Positions 59,359-63,732 of a stretch of 64,000 nt of DNA are shown here, piece by piece; within the stretch, counting starts at the first letter, position 1; every line of letters begins with the position of its first letter. Origin of the DNA: Bordetella parapertussis (lineage in GTDB: Bacteria > Acidobacteriota > Terriglobia > Bryobacterales > Bryobacteraceae); contig CALQCC020000009.1 of NCBI GenBank assembly GCA_943328975.2, forward strand, positions 1-64,000, written 5' to 3'. The notes below the pieces were generated by a model. That model worked only from the letters and a program-made list of their open reading frames with translations. It was not told the origin of the DNA and made no database searches. The translations under genes and the position numbers were made by a program.

Positions 59359-60054
59359 CTAGCGACTGCGCACTACAACTGCTTGACCTGTAATGACTTT
59401 GACGTCTTGAGCAAGTTTCGTAGCCAAGTCCAGTGTCAGATTTTCCCCTACCCAAACTCTCCATAGGGGGGGAGTGGCTGCCGTGGGGACCAAGCGAGCG
59501 TCGGTCCTTAATAAGGACGCGCGCACTCTCTCTGCTCTATCCCGGTCCGAGAACGCTCCAACTTGGACCGTGAACTCCCCGGAAGGCGTGGCCGGTTTGG
59601 GGACATCCGCGGCGGATTGTTGCCGAGGTTCGATCACCTTGAGTTGGACCTTTGCGATTCCGGTTCGCAACAAGTCGATCTCACGAGCCGCACCTCGTGA
59701 CAAATCGATGATGCGTCCATCGACGAAGGGACCTCGATCTGTGATTCGAACGTCGACTTGTTTTCCGTTGTCGAGGTTGGTGACTTCAACCCAAGTTTGA
59801 AATGGAAGTGTTCGATGCGCCGCAGTGAGTTGCTCCATGTCGAAGATTTCTCCCGACGCTGCGCGACGTCCGTTGTATGGTTCGCCGTACCAACTCGCTT
59901 CACCTTTTTCTGTTGCGCCAATGCGCGCAGGTTGCGGCGGTTGCACCACAGTGCGAGTCTGTTTGTGTTTTGCGCAACCAGTGAGAGCGATGCAAGTCGC
60001 AACGATGAAGAGCGCAGTGCGCGAGAAAACGCGTGATGATGCGTTTGAAAACAC
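59359..60054 (-). CDS. rlpA: RlpA-like lipoprotein (DPBB plus SPOR)
   Basis: A 231-residue septal lipoprotein. Lipobox LTGC at about residues 24-27, then the double-psi β-barrel domain (EASWYGEPYNGRRAASGEIFDMEQLTAAHRTLPF, ITDRGPFVDGRIIDLS) and a C-terminal SPOR domain (GEFTVQVGAFSDRDRAERVRASL) that binds denuded glycan at division sites. RlpA is a lytic transglycosylase in Pseudomonas. GTG start with TAGAAT seven bases before it. Confidence 0.92.
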   Translation of the reverse strand: MFSNASSRVFSRTALFIVATCIALTGCAKHKQTRTVVQPPQPARIGATEKGEASWYGEPYNGRRAASGEIFDMEQLTAAHRTLPFQTWVEVTNLDNGKQVDVRITDRGPFVDGRIIDLSRGAAREIDLLRTGIAKVQLKVIEPRQQSAADVPKPATPSGEFTVQVGAFSDRDRAERVRASLLRTDARLVPTAATPPLWRVWVGENLTLDLATKLAQDVKVITGQAVVVRSR

Positions 60055-60067: not shown

Positions 60068-60137
60068 CTCGACTACGTTTTATCGATTCGTGACGCATGA
60101 CACGACGCACACATCATCGGTTGGTTTCATTTTTTTC

Positions 60138-60166
60138 TTGACATTAAATTGAAAGCATCTTATAAA
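60138..60166 (+). promoter_or_regulatory. Near-consensus σ70 promoter of the lysine-rich minigene
   Basis: TTGACA (60138-60143), a 17-base spacer and TATAAA (60161-60166), with an A/T-rich stretch upstream. It is the best σ70 promoter in the window, followed by a ribosome site and the 27-residue gene at 60230. Confidence 0.8.
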
Positions 60167-60229
60167 GGGGACACAAGCGCGTACTGCTCTACTGGTGCGC
60201 GCAACTTGATGTTAAGGGAGAATTATTCA

Positions 60230-60313
60230 ATGAAGAACGCAACCAAGAAGAAAGCAGTCGCGAAGAAAAAGGCGCCTGCCAAGAAGAAAGCCGCCGCAAA
60301 GAAGAAGAAGTAG
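60230..60313 (+). CDS. 27-residue lysine/alanine-rich peptide (histone-tail-like)
   Basis: An ATG-to-TAG frame of 27 residues, MKNATKKKAVAKKKAPAKKK then AAAKKKK: 15 Lys and eight Ala, no acidic residue. It resembles the tail repeats of eukaryotic H1 and bacterial Hc1/HU extensions, so it would bind DNA, RNA or polyphosphate. GGGAG lies about ten bases before the ATG. A near-consensus promoter upstream and a strong terminator at 60350-60380 make a complete single-gene unit, with about 63 bases of 5' leader. It is below most gene-calling thresholds. A small RNA that happens to be open is the alternative. Confidence 0.7.
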   Translation: MKNATKKKAVAKKKAPAKKKAAAKKKK

Positions 60314-60349
60314 TTGCGGCTGACTCGCTAGTTCGAGTCTTTAGAATCC

Positions 60350-60380
60350 GGCCCCGAGAAATCGGGGCCTTTTCTTTTTT
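60350..60380 (+). terminator. Rho-independent terminator of the minigene
   Basis: GGCCCCGA (60350-60357), a GAAA tetraloop and TCGGGGCC (60362-60369), then a run of Ts broken by one C. It may also terminate galU (stop at 60393) in the opposite direction only poorly. Confidence 0.92.
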
Positions 60381-60392
60381 GTGCGTGTTTGC

Positions 60393-61277
60393 TCAGAGTT
60401 TGAGCGTTTTTAGGTAGGCACGGAAGTCCGCACCCAAGTCGTGACGCTTCAGCGCGAACTCCACCGTTGCGCGCAGGAAGCCTTGCTTGTCGCCCGCATC
60501 GTAACGTGTTCCATCGAAGCGATAGCCGTAGATGGGACGGCTGCGCAATTGATGCTTCAACGCATCGGTCAACTGCAACTCTCCACCTGAACCAGGCGTG
60601 ATCGATTCAATCGAAGTGAAGATCTCCGGCGTCAACACATAGCGACCAATGATCGCCAAGTTCGACGGCGCATCTTCTGCCTTCGGCTTCTCCACCATGT
60701 TGCGAATGCGATACAGTCGTCCGTTGCCCGATGAATCTGGAATCAACTCCGCATCCACTACTCCGTACGCGGAGATATGGTCGCGCGGAACTTCCATCAA
60801 TGCGACGACGGGAGCGCCGTAGAACTCGTAGACGTCCAGCATCTGCCGCAACGCTGGAACCTCCGCGTCAATGATGTCGTCCGAGAGAATCACCGAAAAC
60901 GGTTCTTCGCCCACCAGTTCGCGCGAACGCAACACCGCGTGACCCAACCCCAATGCTTCTTTTTGCCGCACGTACGCCACGTTGATCAAGTCGGAAACTT
61001 GGCGCACGGTGGCAAGTAGATCCTTCTTGCCGCGCGACTCGAGCAGATGCTCCAGCTCAAAGCTGACGTCGAAATGATCTTCGATGGCCGCCTTGCCGCG
61101 TCCAGTCACGATGATGATGTTCTGGATGCCGGAATGAATCGCCTCTTCGACGCCGTACTGAATCAACGGCTTATCGACCAGCGGCAGCATCTCTTTGGGC
61201 ATCGCCTTGGTGGCGGGCAGAAAACGCGTACCCAAACCAGCGGCGGGGAAAACGGCCTTACGGACTTTGGCAATCAT
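60393..61277 (-). CDS. galU: UTP-glucose-1-phosphate uridylyltransferase
   Basis: A 294-residue nucleotidyltransferase making UDP-glucose for glycans. Motifs: VFPAAGLGTRFLPATKAMPKEMLPLVDKPLIQYGVEEA, SVILSDDIIDAE, NMVEKPKAEDAPSNLAIIGRYVL and GGELQLTDAL. It will supply the glycosyltransferase at 56164 among others. A TACTAT box seven bases before the ATG gives a leaderless transcript. Ends near the minigene terminator. Confidence 0.96.
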   Translation of the reverse strand: MIAKVRKAVFPAAGLGTRFLPATKAMPKEMLPLVDKPLIQYGVEEAIHSGIQNIIIVTGRGKAAIEDHFDVSFELEHLLESRGKKDLLATVRQVSDLINVAYVRQKEALGLGHAVLRSRELVGEEPFSVILSDDIIDAEVPALRQMLDVYEFYGAPVVALMEVPRDHISAYGVVDAELIPDSSGNGRLYRIRNMVEKPKAEDAPSNLAIIGRYVLTPEIFTSIESITPGSGGELQLTDALKHQLRSRPIYGYRFDGTRYDAGDKQGFLRATVEFALKRHDLGADFRAYLKTLKL

Positions 61278-61324: not shown

Positions 61325-62119
61325 CTACGGAACCGCCGCATCCACCTTCGTCGGTTCACCTTTCATGCCTTGTTCGTTGAGCACGATGATATCGACACGC
61401 CGGTTGCGACCACGGCCTTCTTCGGTATCGTTCGATGCCAGTGGAGCCGTATCCGCATAACCTGCCACCGACATTTTGCCTGTGGGAACGCCGAAACGCT
61501 CCGTCAGGATCTTCAGCAACGCGATCGCGCGGGAGGAAGACAGGTCCCAGTTGCTGTGGAAGCGCGGAGTATTGATGGGCCGCGCGTCGGTGTGTCCTTC
61601 CAGACGCACAGGATTCGGCAGCCGCGTGATCGCTGCGGCAACTTTGCCGATGCTCTCATAGGCACCCGTCGAAATCAGGTCTTCCCCTGAAGGGAACAAC
61701 GCGGCCTGTGCAAAACTGACCACCAGTCCGCGATCCGTCATGCTGATCTGGATCTCACCCTTCTTGACCTCTTCGCTCAGTTCACTCGACAGCACACGTA
61801 ACGATGGCATCAGTTCGGCGAGTTGCTGCTCGCGCCGGTCTTCGACGGTACGCGGTGCCGCAATCTCAGGAACTTTGATTTTGTCCTTACCCGGCTTCTC
61901 CGTCGGACCGTTCAGCACCGCCGCAACCATGGCGGATATGTTGTCCCCTTCCAGGGCCTTCTTCACGCCGTCGGAAACCTGCTGCGCTTTGCCCTTGTCG
62001 CCTTGTGAGGACGCGAACATCACCACGAAGAACGCAAACAGCAGCGTAATGAAGTCGGCGTAGGACACCAGCCAACGCTCATGATTCTCGTGCTCGGGAT
62101 GTTTCTTGGCGCGGGCCAC
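61325..62119 (-). CDS. motB: Flagellar motor stator protein MotB
   Basis: A 264-residue stator protein. One membrane helix carries the proton-accepting Asp in WLVSYADFITLLFAFFVVMFA. The plug and linker are followed by an OmpA-like peptidoglycan-binding domain (VRLEGHTDARPINTPRFHSNWDLSSSRAIALLKIL, RNRRVDIIVL). GTG at 62119 with AAGGGG upstream, next to the motA stop; the longer frame overlaps motA and is not used. Confidence 0.94.
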   Translation of the reverse strand: MARAKKHPEHENHERWLVSYADFITLLFAFFVVMFASSQGDKGKAQQVSDGVKKALEGDNISAMVAAVLNGPTEKPGKDKIKVPEIAAPRTVEDRREQQLAELMPSLRVLSSELSEEVKKGEIQISMTDRGLVVSFAQAALFPSGEDLISTGAYESIGKVAAAITRLPNPVRLEGHTDARPINTPRFHSNWDLSSSRAIALLKILTERFGVPTGKMSVAGYADTAPLASNDTEEGRGRNRRVDIIVLNEQGMKGEPTKVDAAVP

Positions 62120-62120
62120 C

Positions 62121-62954
62121 CTAAGCCCCTTCCGCCGCCGGCACGCCCGCTTCGGTTGCCTCACTCGAGGCTGCACCACTGCCACCCGTGAACGCTTCCA
62201 GCTTGGACCGCAGCAGCTTCGGATTCAGCCCCTCGACAATCCCGGCAATCCCTTCGGTGATCAACACCCGCCGCTTTGCCTCCGCATGCGCCCGAGCCTT
62301 GATCTTCTGCGCCATGGGAAGGAACAAGAGATTCGATAAACCCACGCCATACACCGTCGCCACAAATGCCACCGCAATCCCGTGACCAACTTCTTCGATG
62401 TCCGCCAGATTCTTCATCACTTGAATCAAGCCCATCACCGCGCCAATGATACCGATGGTGGGCGCGTAGCCACCCGCACCTTCAAAAACCTTCGCCTCGG
62501 CTTCCGCGCGTGCCTCTTCGATATCGATCTCCAGCTCCAACATCGCGCGGATCTCTTGCAGGTCGCAGCCATCCACTGCCAGCATCAACCCCTTGCGCAG
62601 AAATGGATCCTCGACCTGCCCCGCCGCTTCCTCGAGCGACACCAGCCCCATCTTGCGCGCCTGCGTCGCGTATTCGATCACTTCTTCCAATACATCGGCG
62701 ATGGGAGGCACTGGGTCTTTCACCACACCCATCATTCGCTTTAGCGATCCCTTCAACACCTTCACGGGCGTCGCCACCAGCACCGCACCCAAGGTCCCGC
62801 CCAGCACGATCATCGCCGCCGTCACCTGCGCGACGTCCGCGATCTTCCCGCCTTCCAGAACCAACCCGCCCAGAATCGCGCCCAATGCGACGACGATCCC
62901 GGCGATGGTCGCCAGATCGATTCCCCCGCTGGTCCTCTTCGCTTCGTCCGCCAT
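62121..62954 (-). CDS. motA: Flagellar motor stator protein MotA
   Basis: A 277-residue MotA with four membrane helices: LATIAGIVVALGAILGGLVLEGG, MIVLGGTLGAVLVATPVKVLKG, YAPTIGIIGAVMGLIQVMKNL and GIAVAFVATVYGVGLSNLLFLPMAQKIK. Cytoplasmic loop residues that contact FliG lie between. With MotB it forms the 5:2 ion channel turning the rotor. ATG overlaps the flbD stop (ATGA). It is the PomA/MotA type; coupling ion not deduced. Confidence 0.95.
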   Translation of the reverse strand: MADEAKRTSGGIDLATIAGIVVALGAILGGLVLEGGKIADVAQVTAAMIVLGGTLGAVLVATPVKVLKGSLKRMMGVVKDPVPPIADVLEEVIEYATQARKMGLVSLEEAAGQVEDPFLRKGLMLAVDGCDLQEIRAMLELEIDIEEARAEAEAKVFEGAGGYAPTIGIIGAVMGLIQVMKNLADIEEVGHGIAVAFVATVYGVGLSNLLFLPMAQKIKARAHAEAKRRVLITEGIAGIVEGLNPKLLRSKLEAFTGGSGAASSEATEAGVPAAEGA

Positions 62955-63151
62955 CAGCTTACCCGGATCTCGGAAAAGATGCGCCGCCGGAATTCTACAA
63001 CCTTCTCCACAACGTCCTCAGCCGCCTCGCGCACCACGTACTTCTGCCCGTTGTTCAGGCTGATCACGGTGTCCGGGGTCGTCTCGATATGTTCGATCAG
63101 ATCCGAGTTCAATATGAGAGGGGTGTGGTTGATGCGAGTGACGCGAATCAT
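62954..63151 (-). CDS. flbD: Flagellar FlbD family protein
   Basis: A 65-residue protein: MIRVTRINHTPLILNSDLIEHIETTPDTVISL, then NGQKYVVREAAEDVVEKVVEFRRRIF. The same small protein commonly precedes motA in Firmicutes, spirochaetes and acidobacteria. Function is poorly defined. ATG at 63151, with an upstream open extension to 63184 not used. First gene of flbD-motA-motB. Confidence 0.9.
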   Translation of the reverse strand: MIRVTRINHTPLILNSDLIEHIETTPDTVISLNNGQKYVVREAAEDVVEKVVEFRRRIFSEIRVS

Positions 63152-63216
63152 CGTGAGTTCGAGGATTTCTCCTACGAATCTCATCGACCATCCGAACCCA
63201 GTTTTGAGGGAACCTG

Positions 63217-63732
63217 CTAACGGAGCAGCTGCAAAATGTCCGTAAGCTCTTTGCGGACCGTATCCAACGCGGAACTCGGCACATCGAACAAGCCGGCTTG
63301 CACCTTCACTGTTTTCTTCGCCGCTGCCGTCTTGGCCCGCTTGCTGGCCGCCGTGGGCACTGGTTCCGGCTTAGCGCGCGTCTCTAGGAATTTGCGCGCG
63401 CCCTCGATCGTAAAACGCTTCTCATACAGCAACGTCTTGATCTCGAACACCAACTGTACGTCCTTGCGGCGGTACAACCGGTGCCCCGTCCCCGACTTCT
63501 TCGGACCCAGCGACGGAAACTCCGTCTCCCAGAAGCGCAACACGTAGGGCTTGATCCCGGCCAATCGCGCTACATCGCCGATGCGAAAATAGAGCTTGTC
63601 GGGAATGTCCTCGGCCTTCATCAACAGGCCGTTGGACTCGACATTGGTATCGAGCTTGGCGTCGAGCGTCGGCTCCTCGCCGGCCGCGGTTGCCGCCGCC
63701 GTTTCGCCCGTTGATGTTTCAGGGTTGTGCAT
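63217..63732 (-). CDS. MerR-family transcriptional regulator
   Basis: A 171-residue regulator. A disordered N-terminal part (1-45) is followed by a MerR HTH (FRIGDVARLAGIKPYVLRFWETEFPSL, GHRLYRRKDVQLVFEIKTLLYEKRFTIEGARKFL). The Lys/Ala-rich linker (SKRAKTAAAKKTVKVQ) and a C-terminal helix complete it; there is no metal-binding cysteine set. It resembles the MerR-like proteins often next to pheT or ihfA. It precedes flbD by 65 bases on the same strand and may regulate it. Diverges from the rRNA methyltransferase gene. Confidence 0.9.
   Translation of the reverse strand: MHNPETSTGETAAATAAGEEPTLDAKLDTNVESNGLLMKAEDIPDKLYFRIGDVARLAGIKPYVLRFWETEFPSLGPKKSGTGHRLYRRKDVQLVFEIKTLLYEKRFTIEGARKFLETRAKPEPVPTAASKRAKTAAAKKTVKVQAGLFDVPSSALDTVRKELTDILQLLR

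Follow-up and report, generated by a model that had tools for sequence, protein, structure and literature searches.

Lys-rich C-terminal tails are carried by HU proteins of actinobacteria and some other bacteria, and tiny ribosomal proteins of the bTHX type are Arg-rich with a fixed sequence. In AlgP, the KPAA-repeat C-terminus has been likened to the tail of histone H1 and is preceded by a putative helical N-terminal domain of 124 residues, with loss disturbing the spacing of polyphosphate granules (PMC9239181). Hc2 is portrayed in PMC2848022 as a Lys-rich, DNA-binding, H1-like protein of 165-237 residues, whose size varies through the gain and loss of Lys-rich elements. Here we analyze a far smaller frame of this type in a 64,000-nucleotide stretch of acidobacterial DNA (the window, meaning that whole stretch). 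An earlier note, made from the letters of the window, had claimed a complete minigene for a peptide that resembles the H1 tail and lacks a folded domain. Comparison across relatives strongly supports this claim. Judged by its conservation in related genomes, the Lys-rich minigene is a real gene.

Anatomy and neighborhood of the minigene

The whole unit spans positions 60130-60380 on the + strand and consists of promoter, leader, ribosome-binding site (RBS), frame, and terminator. The claimed promoter, TTGACA-N17-TATAAA (60138-60166, +), is present in the letters of the window. By sequence reading, a T-tract (60130-60136, +) precedes the -35 element TTGACA (60138-60143, +), and a spacer of 17 bases, between 60143 and 60161 (+), leads to the -10 element TATAAA (60161-60166, +). 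In the alignments, CTTGAC of the -35 region and TATA of the -10 region are (nearly) invariant. For an extended form of the promoter, TTTTCTTGAC-N18-20-TATA, the 64-kb window has a single match and 100 shuffles have none. The promoter is absent from the list that an automatic promoter scan returned for the window, because the scan requires the -10 hexamer to end in T. Just past the predicted transcription start lies a 5' leader hairpin, GCGCG...CGCGC (60177-60202, +), defined by an RNAalifold consensus with covariation. The RBS that the earlier note placed upstream of the frame reads AAGGGAG (60214-60220, +) and stands 9 bases 5' of the ATG.

The frame itself, MKNATKKKAVAKKKAPAKKKAAAKKKK (60230-60313, +, stop included), has 27 codons and runs by sequence reading from the ATG at 60230 to the TAG stop at 60311-60313; the same kind of frame is found at 178 distinct loci. 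Its length and lack of acidic residues are as first described, but it holds 14 Lys (11 AAG and 3 AAA) rather than 15; Asp, Glu, and Arg are all absent. The window has 584 frames that open with ATG and encode 18-60 residues, nested ATGs being counted separately; only the minigene frame, counted at two nested ATGs, exceeds 40% Lys, and one other exceeds 30%. A small hairpin, GACTCG...CGAGTC (60322-60339, +), lies between the stop codon and the terminator, as read in the sequence and in the predicted transcript fold. The frame is followed, as claimed, by an intrinsic terminator, GGCCCCGA-GAAA-TCGGGGCC plus TTTTCTTTTTT (60350-60380, +), with a stem of eight pairs, seven of them G-C (60350-60369), and a T-rich tail (60370-60380). 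An automatic scan listed this terminator; however, it returned four terminator-like sites in the window against 3.1 expected, so that the scan by itself carries no weight. With its T-run on the + strand, the terminator suits the minigene rather than galU.

In the window, the minigene does sit between rlpA and galU as the earlier note had it. rlpA is the divergent neighbor (59359-60054, -; DPBB_1 and SPOR domains by Pfam, TIGR00413) and galU the convergent one (60393-61277, -; TIGR01099). Beyond galU, motB-like, motA-like, flbD-like, and MerR-type genes follow (61325-63732, -). As a general rule, however, this position does not hold: of the 178 loci, 7 have galU within 160 bases downstream, and another 7 have it 990-1782 bases away. 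A divergent rlpA is found upstream in 71/178 loci, and a convergent methyltransferase (PF02636) downstream in 92/178. These counts rest on single-linkage neighbor clusters, two of which were named by Pfam on one example, and 163/178 loci had at least 1000 bases on both sides. A role as part of rlpA or galU expression can be ruled out, given the divergent orientation to rlpA and the terminator T-run on the + strand. In some relatives (G013, G010, G004, and G035), moreover, the gene and galU are on different contigs. The named neighbors (rlpA, the PF02636 methyltransferase, and galU) point to no pathway.

Conservation and coding character in the host family

Whether the frame is kept in relatives was given in the earlier note as a refutation test, and Lys-rich frames were found at the 178 distinct loci, 177 in the host family and one in a sister family (f2). 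The sole search blind to the frame took its pattern from the promoter and the ribosome site alone (TTGACNTT-N13-18-TTATAA-N45-75-GGAGAAT). It matched in 17/200 host-family genomes (reversed control, 0), and all 17 matches had an ATG six bases on that opened a Lys-rich frame of 20-27 residues. A start-site pattern including the first codons reached 108/200 host-family genomes. In the class, it matched 38/299 genomes, all 38 in the host family, with no control matches. The widest coverage came from R1, a covariance model that spans the promoter, the leader, and codons 1-7 and that matched 184/200 host-family genomes, 134/140 of those of good quality and 73/76 genera, leaving 16/200 genomes of the family without a match. 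Both R1 and the start-site pattern (codons 1-7) include coding letters, so their matches lean towards the N-terminal signature, and E-values of R1 and of the broader model R2 (below) are rough. Among the matches listed, R1 found one copy per genome in the 184 genomes, apart from two genomes with two. The genome of the window (4.34 Mb, 69 contigs) has one DNA match to the stretch and one R1 match. A mobile or duplicated element is disfavored, given one match per genome bar two in 184, and recurring neighbors.

To assemble the locus set, 136 loci were read first (116 distinct), 82 were added, and duplicates were merged to 178. Left out were two loci cut by contig ends (L266 and L320) and three frame-less loci of genus g53 (L289, L322, and L327). 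All 178 carry a Lys-rich, low-complexity frame (at least 25% Lys) with no room for a preceding domain. Frame length ranges from 18 to 120 residues and is at most 32 in 159/178 loci. Lys makes up 46% of residues, Ala 36%, Pro 8%, and Thr 5%, and the whole set contains only three Arg, all at residue 2, and two Glu.

From residue 4 onward, the 178 loci and 40 loci of other families contain 5012 codons, among which AAR occurs 2404 times and AAY never, with 2 GAR, 3 AGR, and 0 CGN codons. Across 1207 pairs of frames of equal length (at most 32 residues, less than 25% DNA difference), differences per codon amount to 0.098, 0.047, and 0.295 at positions 1, 2, and 3. In nine 21-residue frames found without using the frame, 4, 1, and 14 of the 20 columns at each of these positions are variable. 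The AAR and AAY counts and the third-position variation show that selection acts on the amino acids, and by this codon evidence Lys is favored over Arg and acidic residues are excluded. It is therefore codons, and not RNA structure alone, that are conserved, as the proposal of a peptide gene had demanded. A chance frame in purine-rich DNA is ruled out by the frame-blind search together with the codons (2 GAR and 3 AGR versus 2404 AAR). The preference is opposite to that of nine neighboring genes in the window, which have 195 Arg and 105 Lys codons. Selection apparently also maintains a short N-terminal signature, MKNATKK or MATKK, towards which the searches lean.

Genera g5, g12, g53, g63, g67, and g86 contain the 19 long forms (38-120 residues), which are built of AAAPAKK or KKATKKAA repeats, the 120-residue frames containing 25% Lys. 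Short forms are also present in g12, in g53, and in one g67 genome with two R1 matches. Because the same promoter and leader precede both, we take the long H1-like and the short forms as one gene. Length and repeat number drift, as in Hc2, while composition is selected.

The flanking elements are conserved as well. In 43 host-family sequences, 92.4% of cells in the leader hairpin are paired and 41 cells are changed on both sides. Its covariation score of 0.494 was reached by 0/500 shuffles, and sliding the partner strand gave at most 0.108. A GGAG lies 8-11 bases 5' of the start in the 178 distinct loci, at 9 bases in 150; spacer counts over the 178 loci are register-dependent in TATATATG and were left out of the results. 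Terminator-like structures follow the frame in 171 of the 177 family-set loci that extend 120 bases or more past it, versus 6/531 shuffles, and in 36/40 loci of other families versus 2/120, the shuffles being mononucleotide and preserving base composition alone. In some species of the window genus (L036, L042, and L044), the terminator stem-loop is present in tandem, in two or three copies.

Distribution beyond the family and losses

At E-values up to 0.001, R1 matched 137/399 genomes of the class, 43 of them outside the host family and, among the matches listed, in families f8, f10, f11, f12, f13, and f16. We read 40 of these 43 loci, and all 40 contain a Lys-rich frame of 11-28 residues; examples are MATKKKAKKKKKH (of the 11-13-residue class), MATKKAAKKATKKAAKKKK, and MKCATKKPAKKKAKKK. 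Where the model start was not an ATG, the most Lys-rich start within 15 bases was taken, and the control of the same reading rule at random places of the same loci (0/4000) covers this rule alone.

The broader model R2 was run on 48 chosen genomes and on a phylum set, and, where the model start was not an ATG, its matches were read from the most Lys-rich start, either from locus positions 1350-1900 or from all frames listed. Among the chosen genomes, it matched in f6 (9/9), f4 (1/1), and f15 (1/1), with frames such as MAAKKKAKKKR. Among the same 48, R2 had no match in f3 (0/9), f5 (0/4), f7 (0/11), and f9 (0/5), nor in the single f2 genome (0/1), while another f2 genome carries the gene. In the phylum set, 30/297 genomes matched (2 f1, 26 f11, and 2 f84). 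The 26 f11 matches comprise 21 Lys-rich frames, two places without such a frame, and three outside the reading. The two without a Lys-rich frame at the place (G340 and G355, E about 0.001-0.002) are false matches at weak scores. Both genomes of f84, which belongs to the same phylum and not to the same class, have MAAKKAAKKAPAKKAAKPAKKAAKK-type frames, and by frame and model match f84 is likely an outpost of the gene in another class. Within the class, the gene was read in 11 families (f1, f2, f4, f6, f8, f10, f11, f12, f13, f15, and f16).

The leader varies over this range. Seven f6 loci (L393, L395, L397, and L400-L403) share a well-kept leader stem-loop of the GCGCTCCGCCAG...CTGGCG type, unlike that of the host family in sequence. 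By reading, four other loci outside the host family (L335, L336, L341, and L349) have a different leader hairpin, so that the class has more than one form of leader fold.

Three loci of genus g53 (L289, L322, and L327) retain the promoter and have lost the frame, a natural set of gene-loss cases, and four further g53 genomes had no R1 match among the matches listed, while others of the genus have the gene. These frame losses and missing matches indicate that the gene is dispensable there. By reading, the leader hairpin is intact in L289 and L322 and broken in L327; L322 also keeps a terminator-like stem despite the lost frame. An intact hairpin without a frame is a poor fit to a leader kept for the peptide alone. 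In genus g8, R1 had no match in five genomes. One g8 genome (G029) encodes at L404 a long Ala/Pro/Lys protein, MATKKPNDAPAP...AAPAKK, which is preceded by GGGAGAATCGTA and does not have the usual promoter; this protein may represent the gene in g8.

Putative role and comparison with known systems

We hypothesize, at about even chances, that the unit is an independent gene whose product is a very short and probably disordered polycation, an H1-like repeat tail with nothing attached that would act by charge on polyanions. Such a disordered, charge-binding polycation is suggested by the composition, the lack of a fixed motif past the first residues, the tolerance of length changes, and the precedents of Hc2 and AlgP. 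The promoter and the 5' stem-loop would yield an abundant, stable message, and together with the terminator they suggest high and steady expression. The peptide, with a predicted net charge of +7 to +37, would work by charge, coating and condensing polyanions in the cell. Its first target would be the nucleoid, possibly along with RNA and polyphosphate, and a counter-ion role for DNA, RNA, or polyphosphate is plausible by analogy. For forms of 11-13 residues (charge about +7 or +8), DNA binding at physiological salt would be weak. The peptide may also supply a tail function in trans to HU-like proteins that do not have a Lys-rich tail. In the genome of the window, the three clear HU-like proteins (L412-L414; 98, 89, and 101 residues) are without such a tail, and a fourth, weak match (L415) was outside the reading; this fits a tail in trans and does not prove it. 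A bolder version, which we regard as possible but on balance doubtful, is that the smallest known chromatin-type protein is the product of a gene widespread in one acidobacterial class (11 families, plus a likely outpost in a second class). It would be a bare, nearly Arg-free polylysine tail of 11-120 residues under its own conserved promoter, complementing tail-less HU in trans and serving the nucleoid, RNA, or polyphosphate as a genetically encoded, tunable polyamine.

Other assignments of the peptide start from the same charge. It may be a counter-ion specific to polyphosphate, loading granules or setting their size and spacing, with DNA binding secondary; the Lys-rich, Arg-poor composition is consistent with this, as is the precedent of the AlgP tail in PMC9239181, but the named neighbors have no known phosphate role, and we consider this narrower target unlikely. 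Somewhat less probable still is a ribosome-associated basic peptide resembling bTHX, which would fill an rRNA groove and be driven, like other ribosomal components, by a strong constitutive promoter. Size, charge, single copy, presence in 184/200 host-family genomes, and a strong-looking promoter all fit. However, tiny ribosomal proteins have Arg and aromatic residues at fixed positions, whereas here Arg is almost missing and length drifts between 11 and 120 residues, a range hard to reconcile with a fixed rRNA groove, and the two common named neighbors (rlpA and the PF02636 methyltransferase) are non-ribosomal.

Two further explanations move the function away from the peptide. A small or dual-function RNA, for which leader hairpin and terminator matter and the frame is secondary, would account for the covariation of the hairpin, for a promoter and leader that read as more conserved than the peptide, for the intact hairpin in two frame-less g53 loci (one of them, L322, with its terminator-like stem), and for a predicted transcript that folds better than shuffles (z -2.6; 3/200 as good). 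Yet the codons exclude an incidental frame (2404 AAR and no AAY, few GAR or AGR, varying third positions), the hairpin is broken too in the frame-less L327, and no Rfam family reached its threshold in the stretches searched: near the gene, the window gave suhB (19.5 bits, gathering score 41), and among seven loci L333 gave BjrC68 (26.6 versus 39), both sub-threshold. RNA as the sole product is ruled out by the frame-blind search and the codon evidence. We rate the RNA explanation overall as very improbable, and retain a dual role of RNA and peptide as possible because the hairpin covaries and reads intact in those two frame-less loci. Least credible of all is a device at the level of translation, in which the Lys frame would stall or buffer ribosomes or sense lysyl-tRNA and the peptide would be idle. 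Ribosomes are known to slow down on consecutive Lys codons, but the terminator-like structure after the frame in 171/177 loci usually leaves no downstream gene to regulate, 120-residue frames with 25% Lys exceed the need of a stall, A-runs of at least 7 are rare (4/218 frames), and the AAG share differs weakly (81% in the minigene frames versus 72% in the nine window genes).

Most of these genes, with 11-32 codons, are near or below the usual size limit of gene callers, so that annotations may lack a gene present in 134/140 good host-family genomes. A peptide that coats DNA or polyphosphate would be a minimal natural H1-type tail without a folded domain, and the natural series of 11-120 residues would be a ready test of charge and length in condensation. 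That Lys is preferred to Arg over thousands of residues makes a clear evolutionary statement on the requirements of such tails. For bacteria that are difficult to handle, the conserved promoter and leader may in addition provide an expression unit.

Database and literature searches point to no described family. The 27-mer and five other members of 32-90 residues (one scanned as the first 90 of 120 residues) matched 0 families in Pfam and NCBIfam. A literature search, with most subscription papers and preprints outside its scope, returned no earlier description of the gene among the matches listed.

AlgP (AlgR3) of Pseudomonas aeruginosa and the related tail of PhaF are also Lys/Ala/Pro-rich, disordered, and H1-like, and the long AAAPAKK forms are much alike to them. 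Compared with AlgP, the minigene is the tail alone, at most 32 residues in most loci, with no N-terminal folded domain before the tail in any of the 178, and the likeness is one of composition. With Hc2 (HctB) of Chlamydia and the Hc2-like proteins of Bordetella and relatives, it shares Lys-rich repeats in variable number; in contrast, the six members scanned have no Hc1 or Hc2 family match. The Lys-rich C-terminal tails of HU are alike in their PAKKA-type low complexity and in charge-driven DNA binding, which for the minigene is assumed by analogy, but here the tail is a separate gene without an HU fold (no Pfam domain in the 27-mer). Tiny ribosomal proteins of the bTHX type are similar in being very basic, 20-30 residues long, and encoded by a single gene; they differ in being Arg-rich and fixed in sequence, whereas the minigene is Lys-rich and drifts in length. 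By analogy, the minigene may function as the H1-like tails do in AlgP and Hc2, while the tests made place it in neither family. From its distribution and frames, it is an old, widespread, domain-less counterpart of those tails, and what appears to be new is the tail alone, at minimal size, in nearly all sampled genomes of the host family.
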